Part shown: positions 17,142-25,321 of the stretch, one piece after another
Numbering within the stretch: position 1 is the stretch's first letter
Layout: each line of letters opens with the position of its first letter
Made by a program: the position numbers and the translations under genes
Notes under the pieces: generated by a model
The model's input: the letters and a program-made list of their open reading frames with translations, nothing else
The model's database searches: none
What the model was told of the DNA's origin: nothing
NCBI GenBank assembly: GCA_027483465.1
Contig: JAIXUQ010000058.1
Coordinates: forward strand, 1-39,074
DNA length: 39,074 nt
Direction: 5' to 3'
From: Sphingomonadales bacterium
GTDB lineage: Bacteria; Pseudomonadota; Alphaproteobacteria; Sphingomonadales; Sphingomonadaceae

Positions 17142-17786
17142 ATGAGCATCATTGCGCCGGAATTGGGCAGGCACAGCTGGCCGGTGATGGGCCGGCACCC
17201 GGATTTGCACGGCCGCCTGGCCGCCTTGCTGGGCGATGCCCTGATCACGATTGACGATCATGTGGGCGAAACCAGCGTGACGGTGGCGCGCGCGGCGCTG
17301 GTGGAGAGCGTGGCGGCACTGCGCGATGCGCCCGATCTGCGCTTCAACCAGTTGATCGACATTTGTGGCGCCGATTTTCCCGACCGGGCGGAACGCTTCG
17401 AGGTGGTGGTGCACCTGCTGTCGATGGCGCAGAATCTGCGGCTGCGGGTGAAGACCAGCACCGATGGCGCCGCCCCGGTGCCCAGCCTGACCGGCCTGTT
17501 CCCCAATGCCGGCTGGTATGAGCGCGAGACCTGGGATTGTTATGGCGTGATGTTTGCCGGCAACCCCGACATGCGCCGCATCCTTACCGATTATGGCTTT
17601 GAAGGTCACCCCTTCCGCAAGGATTTCCCGCTCACCGGCCATGTCGAGCTGCGCTGGTCGGAAGAGCACAAGCGGGTGGTGTATGAGCCGGTGCGGCTGG
17701 CGCAGGATTTCCGCAGCTTTGATTTCCTGAGCCCCTGGGAAGGCACGGATTATGTGCTGCCGGGCGATGAGAAGGCGGCAAAATGA
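17142..17786 (+). CDS. nuoC: NADH-quinone oxidoreductase subunit C
   Basis: This 214-residue peripheral-arm subunit has the family block [51 protein letters not shown] near residues 112-163, the invariant NuoC C-terminal signature. The N-terminal alpha/beta domain includes [13 protein letters not shown]. NuoC and NuoD are separate here, as in most alphaproteobacteria, not fused as in E. coli. The stop overlaps the nuoD ATG as ATGA. Confidence 0.96.
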
Positions 17787-19027
17787 GCAGCTTGGGCAAT
17801 GCCGGCGCCGCCTGGACGGCCGATGACACGGTGGATGTGCTGCCGGCCAAGGACGGCAACGAAATCCAGAACTACATGATCAATTTCGGGCCCCAGCACC
17901 CGGCGGCGCACGGCGTGCTCCGGCTGGTGATGGAGCTGGACGGCGAGATCATCGAGCGCTGCGACCCGCACATCGGCCTGCTCCACCGCGGCACCGAAAA
18001 GCTGATCGAATACAAGACCTATCTGCAGGCGCTGCCCTATATGGACCGCCTCGATTATGTCAGCCCCATGTGCATGGAGCACAGCTATGTGCTCGCCGTG
18101 GAGAAGCTGGCGGGCATCGAGGTGCCCTTGCGGGCCAAGTATATCCGCACCATGTTTGCGGAAATCACCCGCATTCTCAATCACATCCTCAACACCACCG
18201 CGCATGCGATGGACGTCGGCGCGATGACGCCGATGCTCTGGCTGTTCGAGGAGCGCGAAAAGCTGATGGAATTTTACGAGCGGGTCTCGGGCGCGCGCTT
18301 CCATGCTGCCTGGTTCCGCCCCGGCGGGGTCCACCAGGATCTGCCGGCCGGTATGCTGGAGGATATCGCCGCCTGGTGTGATGGCTTCCCGCGCCTGCTC
18401 GATGAATTCCAGGGCCTGGTGGCCGACAACCGCATCTTCAAGCAGCGCAATGTCGATATCGGGGTGATTTCCAAGGAAGACGCGATCGCCATGGGCTTCA
18501 CCGGCCCGTGTATCCGCGCTTCGGGCGTGGCCTGGGATTTGCGCAAGGCCCAGCCCTATGATGCCTATCATCTGGTGGATTTCGATGTGCCCGTCTCCAA
18601 CGACGGCGATTGCTATGCCCGTTTCATGGTGCGCATGGCCGAAATGCGCGAGAGCGTGAAGATCATCCGCCAGTGCGTGGCCGCGATGCCGCCGGGGCCG
18701 CACATCACCGATAACCGCAAGGTGGCGCCGCCGTCGCGCCGCGAGATGAAGCGCTCGATGGAAGCGCTGATCCACCATTTCAAGCTCTACACCGAAGGCC
18801 TGCACGTGCCGGCCGGCGAAGCCTATGTGGCGACCGAAAGCCCCAAGGGCGAATTCGGCATCTATCTGGTGGCCGATGGCACCAACCGCCCATGGCGCTG
18901 CCATATCCGCGCCACCGGCATGGCGCATCTGCAGGCGATGGATTTCCTGTGCAAGGGGCACTTGTTGGCCGATGCGCCGGCGGTGCTGGGCAGCCTTGAT
19001 ATCGTGTTTGGCGAGGTGGACCGGTGA
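17783..19027 (+). CDS. nuoD: NADH-quinone oxidoreductase subunit D
   Basis: This 414-residue 49-kDa-type subunit forms the quinone cavity with NuoB. Motifs include [22 protein letters not shown] (with the quinone-site His), [38 protein letters not shown] and the C-terminal ending DIVFGEVDR, the usual last residues of NuoD. No insertions or breaks were seen. It is followed by a GTGA-overlapped small ORF rather than directly by nuoE. Confidence 0.97.
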
Positions 19028-19194
19028 AGCAAGACGCGACATTCTGGGCCATGGCCCTTGCCGGCCCGGCAGCCATTGCCGCGGCGGCCTTTGCGATCGG
19101 TGCTTCCGGCGGGAACGGCATGATCCTCGTGGCTGGCGGCGCCGGCTTGTGGACAGCCTTTTTCATGACCTGGGCCAGGAAGCGCAGCCAATGA
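19024..19194 (+). CDS. Small two-span membrane protein in the nuo operon (56 aa)
   Basis: The GTG start at 19024 overlaps the nuoD stop (GTGA), and the TGA at 19192-19194 overlaps the next gene's ATG (ATGA), so the frame is tightly coupled on both sides. The product starts [17 protein letters not shown], has two hydrophobic stretches (about residues 8-27 and 33-50, with GGNG between) and ends TWARKRSQ, the positive end expected on the cytoplasmic side. No family was recognised. Its place between nuoD and nuoE suggests a role in complex I stability or assembly, by context only. Confidence 0.72.
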
Positions 19195-19523
19195 GCAAAC
19201 TTGCGATCGCCGAGGCGATGATCGCCCATTACAACGCGCAGGATGCCGATGCCTATGTCGCGCTGATGACCGAGGATGCGGTGGAGGCCGGCTATCGCGG
19301 CGCGGTGCTGCGCGATGGCAAGGAGGGTGTGCGCGCCGGGTTGAAGGCGATGTTTGCCCAGTTCCCGGAAAACCGCGCCGAGATCATCACGGGATATGAA
19401 CTGGGGCCATTCGCGGTGCTGCACGAGAAGGTGTGGCGCAGCAATGACGGCGAACCGTTCGAGGTGATGAGCGTTTACAGTTTCGAGGGCGATTTGTGCA
19501 GCCGGGTGGAATTCATCCGGTGA
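19191..19523 (+). CDS. SnoaL-like / NTF2-fold protein in the nuo operon
   Basis: This 110-residue protein looks like the NTF2/SnoaL cone fold: an N-terminal helix AEAMIAHYNAQDADAYVALMTEDAVE, then strands with RGAVLRDGKEGVRAGLKAMFAQFP, YELGPFAVLHEKVWRSNDGEPFEVMSVYSF, ending with a final strand LCSRVEFIR. Such proteins may be isomerases, small-molecule binders or protein-interaction modules; no catalytic set is evident. It is cytosolic (no signal peptide). It overlaps the neighbours at both ends (ATGA, GTGA), so it is made with the nuo subunits. A soluble NTF2-like protein inside a nuo operon is unusual. Confidence 0.8.
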   Translation: MSKLAIAEAMIAHYNAQDADAYVALMTEDAVEAGYRGAVLRDGKEGVRAGLKAMFAQFPENRAEIITGYELGPFAVLHEKVWRSNDGEPFEVMSVYSFEGDLCSRVEFIR

Positions 19524-19777
19524 GCAGCTGGGGCCTGATCACCGCCGTGGATGATTGGCTGCATGCCAATCGCCGGCTGGTGGCGGCCGTGTCGATCGCC
19601 GCCTTCGTGCTCAGCTGTGCCCATCATGCCCGCTTCATCCGCGTGCCCGAACTGTGGCAGCTGCCGGCGGCTTTTGCCTGGATCATCCCGGCCCTGCGCT
19701 ATGGCGTGTGGGAGGTGATGGTGACACCGAAATTGCAGGAGCGCCGCCGGCGCCTGGAAAGCCCGCACCATGACTGA
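19520..19777 (+). CDS. Small membrane protein in the nuo operon (85 aa)
   Basis: This 85-residue product from the GTG at 19520, which overlaps the previous stop as GTGA, starts MSSWGLITAVDDWLHANRRL. It has a first hydrophobic span (about 20-37, VAAVSIAAFVLSCAHHARF) and a second (about 48-68, LPAAFAWIIPALRYGVWEVMV), and ends with a strongly basic tail KLQERRRRLESPHHD. It overlaps nuoE by eight bases. No family was recognised; association with complex I is inferred only from operon position and coupling. Confidence 0.72.
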   Translation: MSSWGLITAVDDWLHANRRLVAAVSIAAFVLSCAHHARFIRVPELWQLPAAFAWIIPALRYGVWEVMVTPKLQERRRRLESPHHD

Positions 19778-20363
19778 TTATCGCGATTTCACCTGGACTG
19801 ATGCCAACAAGGCCGAGGCCGACCGCATCATCGCGCTGTATCCGCCCGGCCGGCAGGCCAGCGCGATCATGCCGCTGTTGTGGCTGGCGCAGTATCAGAT
19901 GCGCGACGAAACCGGCATTGCCTGGCTGCCGGTGCCGGTGATCGAATATGTCGCCGCCCAGATCGGCATGCCCTATATCCGCGCCTACGAAGTCGCCAGC
20001 TTCTACACCATGTACAATCTGAAGCCGGTGGGCCGCTATCATGTGCAATTGTGTGGCACCACGCCCTGCCTGCTGCGCGGCAGCGACGAGATCATGAAGG
20101 CCTGCAAGGACAAGGGCCTGAAGAAGGGCGCCACCACCGCTGATGGCCTGTTCACCCTGACCGAGGTGGAATGCCTGGGTGCCTGCGCCAATGCGCCGAT
20201 GGTGCAGATCAACGACGATAATTATGAAGACCTGACCTATGACAGCATGACCGGGATTCTGGACATGCTGGCGCGCGGTGAGACGCCCAAGGTGGGCAGC
20301 CAGATCGGCCGCACCGCCTCGTGCCCCGAAGGCGGGCCGACCACGTTGACGGAGATGGCCTGA
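19770..20363 (+). CDS. nuoE: NADH-quinone oxidoreductase subunit E
   Basis: This 197-residue peripheral-arm subunit binds the N1a [2Fe-2S] cluster. It is thioredoxin-like, with cysteine pairs in QLCGTTPCLLRG and VECLGACANAP. The N-terminal helices contain ASAIMPLLWLAQYQ, and YEVASFYTMYNLKPVGRYHVQ is the family's most conserved block. The C-terminal tail TASCPEGGPTTLTEMA is longer than in E. coli and typical of alphaproteobacteria. The ATG lies inside the preceding gene's end; its stop overlaps the next small ORF by one base. Confidence 0.95.
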   Translation: MTDYRDFTWTDANKAEADRIIALYPPGRQASAIMPLLWLAQYQMRDETGIAWLPVPVIEYVAAQIGMPYIRAYEVASFYTMYNLKPVGRYHVQLCGTTPCLLRGSDEIMKACKDKGLKKGATTADGLFTLTEVECLGACANAPMVQINDDNYEDLTYDSMTGILDMLARGETPKVGSQIGRTASCPEGGPTTLTEMA

Positions 20364-20524
20364 TGAAACCGCGCGCGATGGCCGGCCTGGCCTTCATCCT
20401 GGGGGCCATCGGCCTGTTGATCTATGGCATCATCAGCGGTGAATCGCTGGTGCCCGTCGCCATGGCCCTGCTGGTGGCTGGTCTGGCACTGAGCGCGAAG
20501 GCGCGTGAGCGCGGCGGCAAGTGA
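20363..20524 (+). CDS. Small two-span membrane protein in the nuo operon (53 aa), possible paralogue of the next gene
   Basis: This 53-residue product starts at the ATG overlapping the nuoE stop (TGATG). It has MKPRAM, then two hydrophobic stretches (about residues 7-24 and 28-45) joined by SGES, then the basic tail KARERGGK. It aligns with its neighbour over GL-x-x-Y-x-x-x-x-G-x-x-L-x-PV-x-x-A, suggesting tandem duplication. It is predicted to be an inner-membrane hairpin. The function is unknown. Confidence 0.7.
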   Translation: MKPRAMAGLAFILGAIGLLIYGIISGESLVPVAMALLVAGLALSAKARERGGK

Positions 20525-20709
20525 TGGCCATGAACCAGCGCCGTTCCCTGCGTCCGCTCATGCTTGGCCTTGCCCTGGCGATGTTTGCCGTGGCCTTCGG
20601 GCTGGTGGTCTACAGCGGGGCGACCGGCGCGCAGTTGCTGCCGGTGAGCGTGGCGTTCTTCGCCTCGGCCAGCATGTTGATGATCCTCGTGAACAAGCAG
20701 AAGAAGTGA
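20524..20709 (+). CDS. Small two-span membrane protein in the nuo operon (61 aa), possible paralogue of the previous gene
   Basis: The ATG at 20524 overlaps the previous stop (TGATG); a GTG one codon earlier is also possible. The product has a basic N-terminus (MAMNQRRSLRP), two hydrophobic spans (about 12-31 and 38-56) with SGATGAQLLPV between, and ends VNKQKK. Spacing and the G-L-x-x-Y ... L-x-PV pattern match the preceding 53-residue protein. It ends six bases before nuoF. The function is unknown. Confidence 0.7.
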   Translation: MAMNQRRSLRPLMLGLALAMFAVAFGLVVYSGATGAQLLPVSVAFFASASMLMILVNKQKK

Positions 20710-20715
20710 CCCGCC

Positions 20716-22023
20716 ATGCTGGCTGACAAGGACCGGATTTTCACCAATCTCTATGGCTTCCAGCCGTGGAACTTGAGCGCGGCGAAGCTGCGCGGGGATT
20801 GGGCCGACACGAAGGATCTGCTGAGCGTTGGCCCCGATGCCATCATCGACGCGATCAAGGCCAGCGGCCTGCGCGGCCGCGGCGGGGCGGGTTTTCCCAC
20901 CGGCATGAAGTGGAGCTTCATGCCCAAGACGCCCAACCCGGAACGGCCATCCTATCTGGTGGTGAACGCCGACGAGAGCGAGCCGGGCAGCTGCAAGGAC
21001 CGCGAGATCATCCGCCATGATCCGCACAAATTGATCGAGGGCGCGCTGATCGCCGGCTTTGCCATGCGCGCGCGGGCGGCCTTCATCTATATCCGCGGTG
21101 AATATATTGCCGAGGCCAAGGTGCTGATGGCCGCCGTGCAGGAGGCCTATGCCGCCGGCCTGATCGGCCGCAATGCCTGCGGGACGGGCTATGATTTCGA
21201 TGTCGTCGTGCATCGCGGCGGCGGCGCCTATATCTGCGGCGAAGAAACCGCGATGATCGAAAGCCTGGAAGGCAAGAAGGGGCAGCCGCGCCTGAAGCCG
21301 CCGTTCCCGGCCGGCGCCGGCCTGTATGGCAACCCGACCACGGTGAACAACGTGGAAAGCGTCGCGGTGGTGCCGACCATCCTGCGCCGTTCACCCGAAT
21401 GGTTTGCCGCCATCGGCCGGCCCAAGAACGAGGGCACCAAGCTGTTCCAGATCAGCGGCCATGTGAACCGGCCGTGCGTGGTGGAGGAGGCGATGAGCAT
21501 CCCCTTCCGCCAGCTGATCGATGAACATTGTGGCGGCATCCGCGGCGGGTGGGACAATCTGCTGGCGGTGATCCCTGGCGGTTCGTCGGTGCCGCTGGTG
21601 CCGGCGCACCAGATCATGGATTGCCCGATGGATTTCGATGCCCTGCGCGAACTGAAATCCGGCCTGGGCACCGCCGCCATCATCGTGATGGACAAATCGA
21701 CCGACATCGTGCGGGCGATCGCGCGGCTGAGCTATTTCTACAAGCATGAAAGCTGCGGCCAGTGCACGCCATGCCGCGAAGGCACCGGCTGGATGTGGCG
21801 GGTGATGGAACGGCTGGTGACGGGTGACGCCGAAGCCCACGAGATCGACATGCTGCTGGAAGTGACCACCCAGGTGGAAGGCCACACCATCTGCGCGCTC
21901 GGTGATGCGGCGGCCTGGCCGATCCAGGGCCTGATCCGCCATTTCCGCCCCGAGATCGAGGCGCGCATTGCCAAGCGCAAGGGCTTTGTGGCGATGCCGA
22001 ACCTGGCGGTGGCGGCGGAGTAG
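20716..22023 (+). CDS. nuoF: NADH-quinone oxidoreductase subunit F
   Basis: This 435-residue subunit binds NADH, FMN and a [4Fe-4S] cluster, the electron entry point of complex I. It has the NADH/FMN motifs [17 protein letters not shown] and [36 protein letters not shown], and the cluster ligands [15 protein letters not shown] plus a later Cys in [10 protein letters not shown]. It is intact with a standard length. It is the last nuo gene here: the expected nuoG does not follow, and a convergent cupin gene begins after 42 bases. A 6-bp stem at 22042-22059 without a U run is the only terminator-like element. Confidence 0.97.
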
Positions 22024-22065
22024 CATCCCGCCGCCGGGGCACCGGTCACGCTCGACCGGGCCGGC

Positions 22066-22494
22066 CTATTGCCCGCCGAATGTCACATAGAACTTGCGGT
22101 AGCCGGCGGTTTTCCAATTGCCTTTCCAGCCCTTGGGGATGGTCACGCCGTCGCCGGCCTTCACCTCGATCACCGTGCCATCGGCCGAGGTGAGGGTGAC
22201 GCCGCCGTCCAGGAAATACATGAATTCATTGTCGGGGTAGGAGGCGATATCCTCGTTGGAGGCGGTGGCGGCATAGATGCCGGCCGAGGATTTGTCCTTG
22301 GTCAGCAGCATTTCCACCCATTTGGTGGTGTGGCCGCCCTTGGTTTCGATGATCGCCTTGGGCGAGGTGAAGATGCTGCCCTTGGCCTGCTCTGCGGTGA
22401 CAATCACCGGCTTGGCCGGCGCCGGGGCCACTGTTTGCGCCTGGGCCGTGCCGGCCACCGCCAGGGTCGCCATGGCCACCATCATCATCCGCAT
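22066..22494 (-). CDS. Secreted cupin-domain protein
   Basis: This 142-residue protein has a signal peptide (residues 1-20, with VAMATLAVAGTAQAQ and a cleavage after AQA) and a single cupin barrel. The barrel shows NEFMYFLDGGVTLTSADGTVIEVKAGDGVTIPKGWKGNWKT, the spacing of a cupin motif pair, but the classical metal-ligand His residues are replaced (NEFMYFLDG and GDGVTIPKG), so it may not bind metal in the usual way. Similar secreted single-domain cupins occur in sphingomonads; the substrate is unknown. The ATG at 22494 starts the signal peptide; the longer frame to 22659 overlaps gyrA. Confidence 0.8.
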   Translation of the reverse strand: MRMMMVAMATLAVAGTAQAQTVAPAPAKPVIVTAEQAKGSIFTSPKAIIETKGGHTTKWVEMLLTKDKSSAGIYAATASNEDIASYPDNEFMYFLDGGVTLTSADGTVIEVKAGDGVTIPKGWKGNWKTAGYRKFYVTFGGQ

Positions 22495-22645
22495 GCCCGT
22501 CACTCCCGCCTGAATGCCTCGTGCCCCAAGTCTATCGCGGGCGCGGGCGTGCGCAAGCCGGGCGCCTTTCCACTGGCCTTTTTGCCCGCTTTCCCCTAAT
22601 CGGGTCATTGACCTGCAACATTTGCTGCCGAGCTGATAAAAGACA

Positions 22646-25321
22646 ATGGAATCAACCACTCAGCCGCCTGCCGGCACGCCCGATATCCAGCCCGTCTCCA
22701 TCGTGGCGGAGATGCGCACCAGCTTCCTCGATTATGCCATGTCGGTGATCGTGGCGCGGGCGCTGCCCGATGTGCGCGATGGCCTGAAACCGGTGCACCG
22801 CCGCATCCTGTGGGGCAGCCACGAAAACGGCTTCACCTGGAACAAGCCCTACCGCAAATCGGCCCGCATCGTTGGCGATGTGATGGGCAAATATCACCCG
22901 CATGGTGACAGCGCGATCTATGACGCGCTGGCGCGCATGACGCAGGACTGGTCGATGCGGCTGCCGCTGATCGACGGGCAGGGCAATTTCGGCTCGATGG
23001 ACCCCGATGCCCCGGCTGCCATGCGCTATACCGAGGCGCGGCTGGCCAAGTCCGCCGATGCGCTGCTGGCGGATATAGACAAGGACACGGTGGATTTCGT
23101 GCCCAACTATGATGGTTCGGAGCATGAGCCATCGGTGTTGCCGGCGCGCTTTCCCAACCTGCTGGTGAACGGCGCCGGCGGCATCGCCGTGGGCATGGCC
23201 ACCAACATTCCGCCGCACAATCTGAACGAGGTGGTGGATGCGGTGCGTGCCTATCTGGATGATCCGCTGATCACGGTGGAAGGGCTGATGGCGCATGTGC
23301 CGGCGCCCGATTTTCCCACCGGCGGGCTGATCCTGGGATCGAGCCAGCTGCGCACCGCCTATGAGACCGGGCGCGGCTCCATCCGGCTGCGCGCCCGCCA
23401 TGAGATCGAGGAAGGCCGCGGCGACAAGCGCGCCATCGTGCTCACCGAAATTCCCTATCAGCAGGGCAAGAACGCGCTGGTGGAGAAGATCGCCGAGGCG
23501 GTGAAGGACAAGCGCATCGAGGGCGTTTCCGACCTGCGCGACGAGAGCAACCGCGAAGGCGTGCGCATCGTGCTGGATCTGAAGCGCGATGCGACGCCCG
23601 ATGTGGTGCTCAACCAGCTGTGGCGCTACACCCCGGCGCAGCAGAGCTTTGCCATCAACATGCTGGCCATCCGCGGCGGCCGGCCCGAATTGATGGGCCT
23701 GAAGGACATCATCCAGGCCTTTGTCGAATTCCGCGAGACGGTGATCACCCGCCGGTCCAAGCATGAACTGGCCAAGGCGCGGGATCGGGCGCATCTGTTG
23801 ATCGGCCTGGTGATCGCAGTGGCCAATCTGGATGAGGTGGTGCGGATCATCCGCGCCAGCGCCAGCCCGGCCGACGCGCGCGAGACGCTGATGGCGCGGG
23901 AATGGGATGCGGGCGAAATCCGCCCCTATCTGGCGCTGGTGGAGGCCGGCACGGTGGATGCCGATGCGGCCACCATCCGCCTGACCGAGGCCCAGGTGCG
24001 CGCCATCCTGGATTTGCGCCTGCAAAAGCTCACCGCGCTGGGCCGCGATGAAATCGGCAATGAATTGAAGGAACTGGCCGGCAGCATTGCCGATCTGCTG
24101 GATATCCTCACCAGCCGGGTGCGGCTGCGCAGCGTGCTGCGGGCCGAGCTTGATGCGGTGTCGGACGAGTTCCAGTCCCGCCGCCGCACCGAGATCGTGA
24201 CGGCGCATGACGATATCGACGACGAGGATCTGATCGAGCGCGAGGACATGGTGGTGACCGTGACCCGCGATGGCTGGATCAAGCGGGTGGCGCTGGCCGA
24301 GTATCGGGCGCAGGGGCGCGGCGGCAAGGGCCGCAACGCCATGGCCACCAAGGATGAGGATGCGGTGACGACCCTGTTTGTCACCTCCACCCACAATCCG
24401 GTGCTGTTCTTCTCCACCGCCGGCAAGGTGTATCGCCTGAAAGTGTGGCGCCTGCCGCAGGGCAGCCCCCAGGCCAAGGGCAAGCCGATCAACAATCTGC
24501 TGCCGCTGGCCGAGGGCGAGACGATCATCACCACCCTGCCGCTGCCCGAGGACGAGGCCGAATGGGGCCGGCTGCACGTGATGTTTGCCACCGCGCTGGG
24601 CAGCGTGCGCCGCAACGCCATGGACGCCTTCACCAGCGTGCCCACCGCCGGCAAGCTCGCCATCCGCTTTGAGGAGGGCGATGACGATCGCCTGATCGGT
24701 GTCGCGCTGTGTGACGAGGCCGATGACGTGTTCCTGGCGGCGCGCAGCGGCAAGGCCATCCGTTTCCCGGTGAGTGATGTGCGCGAATTCGTGTCGCGCA
24801 CCTCCACCGGCGTGCGCGGCATGAGCCTTTCCGATGATGATCAGGTCGTCTCCATGGCGATCCTGAAGGCCTTTGATGCCAGCGTGCAGGAGCGCGAGGA
24901 TTATCTGAAAGCGGCCGCCTGGAAGAACGATCCGGCGCCGCGCATCCTTTCGGAAACCCGCATGGGCCAGTTTGCGGCGGTCGAGGAGTTCATCCTGACG
25001 ATCACCGCCAACGGCTTTGGCAAGCGCAGTTCGGCATTTGAATATCGCCAGTCGGGCCGGGGCGGGCAGGGCATCCGCAACATCGCCGAAAGCGACCGCA
25101 ACGGCGATGTGGTGGCCAGTTTCACCGCGCAGGATGATGATGACGTGCTGCTGGTGACCGATCAGGCCAAGCTGATCCGCATCCGCGCCGCCGAAATCCG
25201 CATCATGGGTCGCGCCGCCCAGGGCGTCACCCTGTTCAAGGTCGCCGATGATGAGCATGTGGTGTCGGCCGCGCTGATCCCGGCCGATCGCGAGGAGGGG
25301 GAGGCCGCGCCGCCGGCCTAA
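22646..25321 (+). CDS. gyrA: DNA gyrase subunit A
   Basis: This 891-residue type II topoisomerase subunit cuts and rejoins DNA to introduce negative supercoils. The N-terminal breakage-reunion domain has the active Tyr128 in MRYTEARL. The quinolone region [18 protein letters not shown] has Ser89 and Asp93, equivalent to E. coli Ser83 and Asp87, so it appears to be quinolone-sensitive wild type at these two sites. The C-terminal pinwheel contains the GyrA box QGRGGKG at about residue 556, which distinguishes it from ParC. An acidic DD-rich stretch occurs in the C-terminal blades. No strong ribosome site precedes the ATG (leader ends GATAAAAGACA). Its stop overlaps the convergent YhhN gene by four bases. 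Confidence 0.95.

Follow-up and report, generated by a model that had tools for sequence, protein, structure and literature searches.

Complex I operons are usually regarded as tightly conserved, and the occurrence of unassigned open reading frames (ORFs), the so-called URFs, in the nqo/nuo clusters of Paracoccus and Rhodobacter capsulatus is an old observation. The complex I of Paracoccus denitrificans carries the supernumerary subunits NDUFS4, NDUFS6, NDUFA12 and CI-PIMT, the last of these being an enzyme fold recruited as an extra subunit of the hydrophilic domain (PMC11522691). A small ORF with two predicted membrane spans, belonging to DUF5337 (PF17272), occupies the nuoE-nuoF junction in another alphaproteobacterial family (L239, E 9.9e-20). 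Here we describe five small ORFs, A to E, which lie between nuoD, nuoE and nuoF in a stretch of 39,074 nucleotides (nt) from a Sphingomonadales bacterium of the family Sphingomonadaceae (GenBank assembly GCA_027483465.1, contig JAIXUQ010000058.1, positions 1 to 39,074, forward strand), hereafter the window. The nuoD-nuoE, nuoE-nuoF and nuoF-nuoG junctions are insertion hot spots in this family, and the five ORFs are best read as exchangeable, nuo-coupled accessory genes, a shifting set gained and lost at the same junctions.

Like the URFs, these are unassigned ORFs among complex I genes, the sequence comparison having been made through DUF5337, at most a putative relative of the URFs. DUF5337 is itself a small two-span ORF at one of these junctions, but A, C, D and E do not match PF17272. 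The Paracoccus subunits are extra proteins of an alphaproteobacterial complex I, but A to E have no Pfam match to any such family; a first-pass annotation of the window had set them apart from known extra subunits of the class. An identity as NDUFS4-, NDUFS6- or NDUFA12-type subunits was rejected (no such Pfam family at E<=1, no NCBIfam support). CI-PIMT, which is bound to the hydrophilic arm, is the closest documented parallel to the role proposed for ORF B, a protein with an orthologue of solved structure, Saro_2299 (PDB 3FF2). The literature searched, with subscription papers mostly outside its coverage, yielded no functional description of these ORFs, the slots or 3FF2/Saro_2299, and no account of a junction-specific hot spot, of its turnover or of a nuo-linked NTF2 family with an orphan structure.

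Insertion Hot Spots Around the N-Module Genes

Loci were drawn from 80 NuoE matches together with regions from further relatives and from the class, for which 80 of the 110 matching genomes besides the window's were taken in. Thirteen exact-duplicate loci were dropped before clustering, tree building and the junction survey, near-duplicates were kept, and the survey of what follows nuoF kept two duplicates. The window's family in GTDB is f1, to which L002-L081 were assigned as nearest matches and not by GTDB label. In a first survey of 166 loci, four of them with one unreadable gap, nuoD-nuoE gaps ranged from -16 to 1546 nt and nuoE-nuoF gaps from -11 to 824 nt. Counting a junction as open at a gap of at least 120 nt, openness within the family reached 87/120 at nuoD-nuoE, 69/118 at nuoE-nuoF and 47/88 at nuoF-nuoG, with 0/81 at nuoA-nuoB, 0/90 at nuoB-nuoC, 8/101 at nuoC-nuoD and 0/8 at nuoG-nuoH. 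Outside the family the same three junctions were open in 7-10% of cases (9/111, 8/112 and 10/97, respectively), and nuoA-nuoB, nuoB-nuoC and nuoC-nuoD in 0/32, 0/81 and 1/106. Openness is therefore particular to the junctions next to the N-module (NADH-oxidising module) genes and typifies this family, other families showing it now and then.

The slots hold 205 ORFs, which fall into many families plus singletons. They include a 34-member family with two predicted spans in nuoE-nuoF and the 32-member B family in nuoD-nuoE; the A, C and D families have 10, 6 and 6 members, respectively, and E stands alone. Since the ORF caller gave a bonus to start/stop overlaps and the codon score is no higher than 2 for 32 of the 205, the singleton tail includes doubtful ORFs, and 15 gaps of at least 120 nt contained no ORF that the caller accepted. 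Cupins are present among the slot ORFs, as is a coiled-coil family of 75-95 amino acids (aa), X11, with five ORFs in nuoD-nuoE, six in nuoE-nuoF and two in nuoF-nuoG (L003, L006, L052, L053, L062, L069, L074, L114, L117 and L118), which unlike B is not tied to one junction. Merging of the two-span families by profile comparison was tried and abandoned, with weak scores (best 37%). In other families, nuoD-nuoE inserts include two adjacent ORFs, judged by eye to be AbrB-like and PIN-like, and an ORF of 366 aa for which nine spans are predicted (L242, L246). Slot ORFs of L042, L055, L063, L073 and L133 read by eye like translated palindromic intergenic repeats (HAELVSAS, ALSLSKG), so that some insert DNA in the nuoD-nuoE or nuoE-nuoF gaps probably consists of repeat elements.

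Empty slots also occur close to the window. Five loci have a direct GTGA overlap between nuoD and nuoE, two of them in the window's genus (L090 of genome G012, L104 of G007) and three near it (L008, L010, L014), and the slot gaps of same-genus genome G014 (L101) are only 47 and -11 nt. Some of the five ORFs are missing from G012, and all five from G007 and G014.

The Five ORFs of the Window

In the window nuoA-B-C-D is followed by A, B and C, then by nuoE, D and E, and finally by nuoF, all on the plus strand:

nuoD, 17783..19027, plus strand: PF00346 (E 3.4e-123 and 8.6e-123); upstream boundary of the nuoD-nuoE slot, ending in ..CCGGTGA
Left direct repeat CCGGTGA, 19021..19027, plus strand: 7 nt at the end of nuoD, flanking the A+B block
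ORF A, 19024..19194, plus strand: 56 aa, GTG start, two predicted membrane spans
ORF B, 19191..19523, plus strand: 110 aa, NTF2/SnoaL-fold soluble protein, PF12680, orthologue of PDB 3FF2 (Saro_2299)
Right direct repeat CCGGTGA, 19517..19523, plus strand: 7 nt at the end of B, closing the A+B block
ORF C, 19520..19777, plus strand: 85 aa, weakly hydrophobic
nuoE, 19770..20363, plus strand: PF01257 (E 2.5e-52)
ORF D, 20363..20524, plus strand: 53 aa, two predicted membrane spans
ORF E, 20524..20709, plus strand: 61 aa, two predicted membrane spans; an orphan that may be a diverged tandem duplicate of D
nuoF, 20716..22023, plus strand: PF01512 (E 2.1e-48) and PF10589 (E 2e-32); last gene of the nuo cluster here

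Re-reading of the coordinates from the sequence recovered the five ORFs of 56, 110, 85, 53 and 61 residues that had been annotated at first pass. A is joined to the nuoD stop by a GTGA overlap, B to A by ATGA and C to B by GTGA, while TGATG joints link nuoE to D and D to E, and six bases separate E from nuoF. The earlier description of start/stop overlaps throughout is accurate for these joints but not for that of C and nuoE, which share 8 nt (ATGACTGA) rather than a bare start/stop overlap. Similarly, two membrane spans had been assigned to four of the products, and a Kyte-Doolittle scan finds them clearly in A, D and E, whereas C falls below the threshold used and is doubtful.

In codon usage B, C, D and E out-score every one of 353 spurious ORFs (45-120 aa, wrong frames of known genes), and A ranks in the top 2%. 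Homologues at the same junctions were found for A-D, and none for E in 59 other genomes. No Pfam or NCBIfam match above cut-off was obtained for A, C, D or E. Phage or defence families as the identity of any of the five were dismissed, with no PHROGs or PADLOC family at E<=0.01.

ORF B and Its Linkage to nuo

ORF B is a SnoaL_2 protein (PF12680, E 1.4e-13, 51.8 bits vs a cut-off of 27), as the NTF2/SnoaL-like call at first pass had anticipated. It belongs to the same family as Saro_2299 of Novosphingobium aromaticivorans, an uncharacterised cystatin/NTF2-fold protein whose structure, 3FF2, was deposited without a function (E 5.8e-50 over 2-111 of 111 profile positions, a full-length match; 58% identity; TM-score (TM) 0.95), and relatives 80-92% identical to Saro_2299 lie between nuoD and nuoE. 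The protein has been detected intact, with its Met removed, by top-down mass spectrometry (MS) (PMC3608174). The AlphaFold2 (AF2) model of B (pLDDT 96.2) has a cone-shaped alpha+beta fold, and its structural matches after 3FF2 are other NTF2-fold proteins, ketosteroid isomerases (KSI; TM about 0.75-0.86, query-normalised) and (limonene-)epoxide hydrolases. B shares its fold and Pfam family with the SnoaL_2/ketosteroid isomerase-like NTF2 superfamily but differs in its nuo linkage and in not keeping the KSI catalytic residues Tyr14 and Asp38. In the B profile these two positions are Leu and Gly, Asp99 lies outside the alignment, and an identity as a ketosteroid isomerase was rejected because the two are not kept. 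The polar residues E32, Y35, R36, R41, R48, E79, R83 and Y96 are invariant in B (19 rows).

Genome-wide searches for A, B, C and D covered 98 genomes, the window's included. B was found at E<=1e-8 in 23 of them, and in 22 it adjoins nuoE; the 23rd match, at 32% identity, is a different SnoaL protein away from nuo. With 3FF2 as the query, 61/298 family genomes in 25/96 genera carry B at E<=1e-12. Linkage was checked for 30 of these 61 and for 11 more via the 98-genome search; in each of the best 30 family loci B occupies the nuoD-nuoE junction in the same orientation (30/30), and two further loci agree (2/2). Among 385 class genomes there are eight B matches at E<=1e-9, three of them in the family and two weak ones with no nuo genes on the stretch examined. 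The remaining three are strong matches at 35-38% identity in two other families (L298, L299 and L300; f12 and f106), all between nuoD and nuoE, so that the pairing is either ancient or the result of repeated recruitment. Counting each genome once and including the window, B at E<=1e-20 is at nuoD-nuoE in 56/56 located genomes. In 28/32 loci, as called by a program that favours such joints, its start overlaps the upstream stop by 4 nt; the overlap coupling from which in-step synthesis had been proposed is thus retained in relatives. In 7/13 other same-genus genomes carrying B the protein is 91-95% identical to the window's. A mobile origin of B was discounted, with no match in plasmid or phage collections at E<=1e-5.

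Families of A, C, D and E

ORF A has matches at E<=0.01 in 13 of the 98 genomes, in 8 of them at nuoD-nuoE, and 11 matches at E<=1e-9, of which 8 are at nuo. Counting the window, all five strong matches to C are at nuo, as are all six to D, which lie between nuoE and nuoF; D has three further weak matches away from nuo. The conserved nuo linkage in sphingomonads that the first-pass annotation had proposed to look for is therefore complete among strong matches for B (56/56), D (6/6) and C (5/5), and partial for A (8/11, with 3/11 elsewhere). As a fixed set of subunits of this lineage, however, the five ORFs did not hold up, since B is present in 61/298 family genomes and E in 1/60, and most members are without them.

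ORF E is possibly a diverged tandem copy of D, to judge from local matching against the 204 other slot ORFs, in which the two highest scores belonged to proteins of the D family (z 7.3 and 5.8). The remaining four of that family scored z 0.4-2.5 and an A member from L052 z 4.8. Profile comparison (6% for D, 23% for A) gives no support beyond these two pairwise scores, and the identification was not adopted.

Selection on A-D

Constraint was estimated from pairwise Nei-Gojobori dN/dS or pooled pN/pS, ratios of nonsynonymous to synonymous change, and not by a codon-model test. Against window-clade relatives, pooled pN/pS (95% interval) is 0.10 (0.06-0.15) for B, 0.35 (0.22-0.52) for C, 0.53 (0.38-0.72) for A and 0.65 (0.48-0.87) for D. 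A-D are under purifying selection, and B most strongly. The dN/dS of nuoE was computed for eight close loci, seven of which were compared for both genes, and B lies below nuoE in 6/7 (0.05-0.10 vs 0.17-0.23). Against six more distant loci the value for B is 0.06 (L096) or 0.19-0.37, and pairwise medians are 0.54 for A, 0.24 for B, 0.43 for C and 0.40 for D. The proposal made at first pass had been staked on presence in close relatives and on selection: each ORF is missing in some same-genus genomes and E is an orphan, but A-D have pN/pS below 1.

Turnover at the Slots

On a NuoD/E/F tree, the presence of B (32 of 152 loci) requires 22 changes, as compared with 25-32 (mean 29.6) in 100 shuffles; any nuoD-nuoE gap of at least 150 nt requires 21 changes and any nuoE-nuoF gap of at least 110 nt requires 28. 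Vertical-only inheritance of B was rejected on a tree conflict at L096, whose nuo genes group with L097 and L103 (support 100/98), whereas in the B tree it joins the window clade. The B of L096, and by eye its A, resemble those of that clade. Holding B of L096, L097 and L103 together was rejected (approximately unbiased test, p-AU 2.3e-6), as was holding the L096 nuo genes with the window clade (p-AU 3.7e-42). The genome concerned, G016, is 78% complete and 6% contaminated. A similar conflict at L085 is not significant (p-AU 0.0875), and for both loci the groups tested were defined once the trees had been inspected.

In the window clade, the CCGGTGA repeat that bounds A+B contains the GTGA joints, and loss between the two copies would leave the empty GTGA joint seen in relatives. 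At least 7 nt are shared between the nuoD end and the B end in 11/32 B loci, 10 of them in the window clade (controls: nuoD end vs nuoE end 0/32, B end vs nuoE end 3/32). Cassette excision via CCGGTGA as a general mechanism was rejected, since it applies in the window clade but scarcely outside it.

Surroundings of the Truncated nuo Cluster

The five ORFs had been placed within the complex I operon, and they do lie between nuoD, nuoE and nuoF, but the cluster stops at nuoF, where a minus-strand cupin and then gyrA follow, and nuoH is on another contig, contig 56. The order there is nuoG-H-[145-aa ORF]-I-J-K-L-M-N, where genes other than nuoH received their names by eye and from the tblastn order seen in relatives. 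The 145-aa ORF between nuoH and nuoI (L255 11395-11832, minus strand; H-I gap 433 nt) has no Pfam match. The Cupin_3 protein (window 22066-22659, minus strand), antisense between nuoF and gyrA, has a probable signal peptide by eye, and its true start is likely internal. While nuoG follows nuoF in 116/123 family and order loci with room there, the operon is cut after nuoF in the window's genus, with gyrA next in L003, L004, L005, L011, L256, L257, L258 and L260; L259 and L261 have neither gyrA nor nuoG within the stretch available (window 20716-25321; L255-L261 comparison). The location of nuoG-N apart from the cut operon was seen for the window genome alone.

Accessory Genes or Passengers

We propose that the nuoD-nuoE, nuoE-nuoF and nuoF-nuoG junctions, which flank the N-module genes, would act as operon-internal slots for small genes in Sphingomonadaceae. 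Entrants mostly start within the neighbour's stop codon, which would keep translation in step with NuoD, NuoE and NuoF and allow clean gain, swap and loss, and the two slots remaining in the window genome house five such genes. B most likely serves the peripheral arm in an accessory or assembly role and would bind a nuo product or a nearby ligand during module building, and A, D, E and perhaps C may be small, dispensable hairpins in the membrane, acting as weak accessory subunits or carried along as passengers. Selection and linkage indicate that B serves something tied to nuo, and its frequent absence that this service is optional. For B an accessory or assembly role in complex I is probable, although its cellular place, any contact with complex I and any function of the five products are inferred. 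That the slot genes, B above all, have an accessory role for complex I is a view we hold tentatively, at slightly under an even chance, and for A, C, D and E a passenger role is about as good a reading. A more ambitious version seems to us rather unlikely: the three slots would form an interchangeable outer layer, co-translating supernumerary proteins with the N-module and recombining as cassettes between lineages to tune or protect complex I, with B as an unrecognised subunit, of known structure, on the peripheral arm and the small hairpins in the membrane.

Several observations weigh against an accessory role. Nuo-type B is missing from 76/98 relatives and 237/298 family genomes have no match to the 3FF2 query at E<=1e-12, which means that complex I works without it; the genomes lacking B include same-genus ones rated 100% complete (G007, G012, G019 and G021), in which no other place gave a match at E<=1e-8. 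At L085 nuoE is the more constrained gene (0.13, against 0.35 for B), the median dN/dS of B over 118 pairs is 0.24, and pairs with dN/dS of at least 1 number 2/33 for A, 0/118 for B, 3/13 for C (among them window C vs L076, 1.35) and 1/15 for D. Constraint on D is weak and E stands alone, three strong matches to A and five weak matches to C lie away from nuo, and the many unrelated gene kinds in the same slots (cupin, coiled coil, two-span proteins) suggest tolerance rather than shared function. Saro_2299 is moreover listed in a periplasmic fraction, which speaks against a cytoplasmic complex I partner; this is tempered by the lack of a predicted signal and by the presence of Cpn10 and an ATPase delta/epsilon subunit in the same list (PMC3608174).

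Much of this would follow if the junctions around nuoE, nuoF and nuoG simply tolerate insertion and the strong, steady expression of the operon attracts unrelated small genes whose products are unconnected with complex I. The unrelated contents and high turnover of the slots, the 22 tree changes needed for B, the spread of X11 over all three slots, the copies of A away from nuo and the gaps without an accepted ORF are all as expected of such passengers, and we regard this explanation as a serious one, if short of an even chance. However, a free passenger should also turn up elsewhere, and the located close relatives of B sit at a single junction and are under strong purifying selection. Should the products be irrelevant altogether, the overlapping ORFs could be translational spacers that set the NuoD/NuoE/NuoF ratio by repeated termination-reinitiation. 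Overlaps at nearly every joint of the window and of the B loci, and the weak constraint on D, fit this idea, but amino-acid level selection on A-D, the 91-95% identity of B to the window's in 7/13 other same-genus genomes that carry it and the folded, expressed orthologue (3FF2/Saro_2299) make it improbable.

B might instead be an enzyme, an isomerase, cyclase or hydrolase that makes or clears some small molecule, for instance a quinone-like compound or a damaged cofactor, and that is kept among the nuo genes for co-regulation. Its fold neighbours among ketosteroid isomerases and limonene-epoxide hydrolases and its invariant polar residues would suit such a role; yet KSI Tyr14 and Asp38 are not kept, no substrate is known and the linkage is to nuo only, and we give this little credence. 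The orphan status of E and the codon score of A, the weakest of the five, are what could be said for chance ORFs or annotation artefacts, an account rendered scarcely credible by the codon usage, the A-D homologues at the same place, the selection and the B orthologue detected by MS.

Implications for Complex I in Sphingomonadaceae

Three of the six well-surveyed junctions from nuoA-nuoB to nuoF-nuoG are open to small genes in one family, while the neighbouring ones are closed. B, read as an accessory or assembly protein, shows the signature to be expected of a dedicated partner, in that its close copies were found at one place only and are in most close pairs under stronger constraint than the adjacent subunit, yet it is often lost. 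The linkage offers a candidate context for 3FF2, a structure released in 2008 without a function, and makes possible a concrete test of how complex I accessory subunits arise in bacteria.

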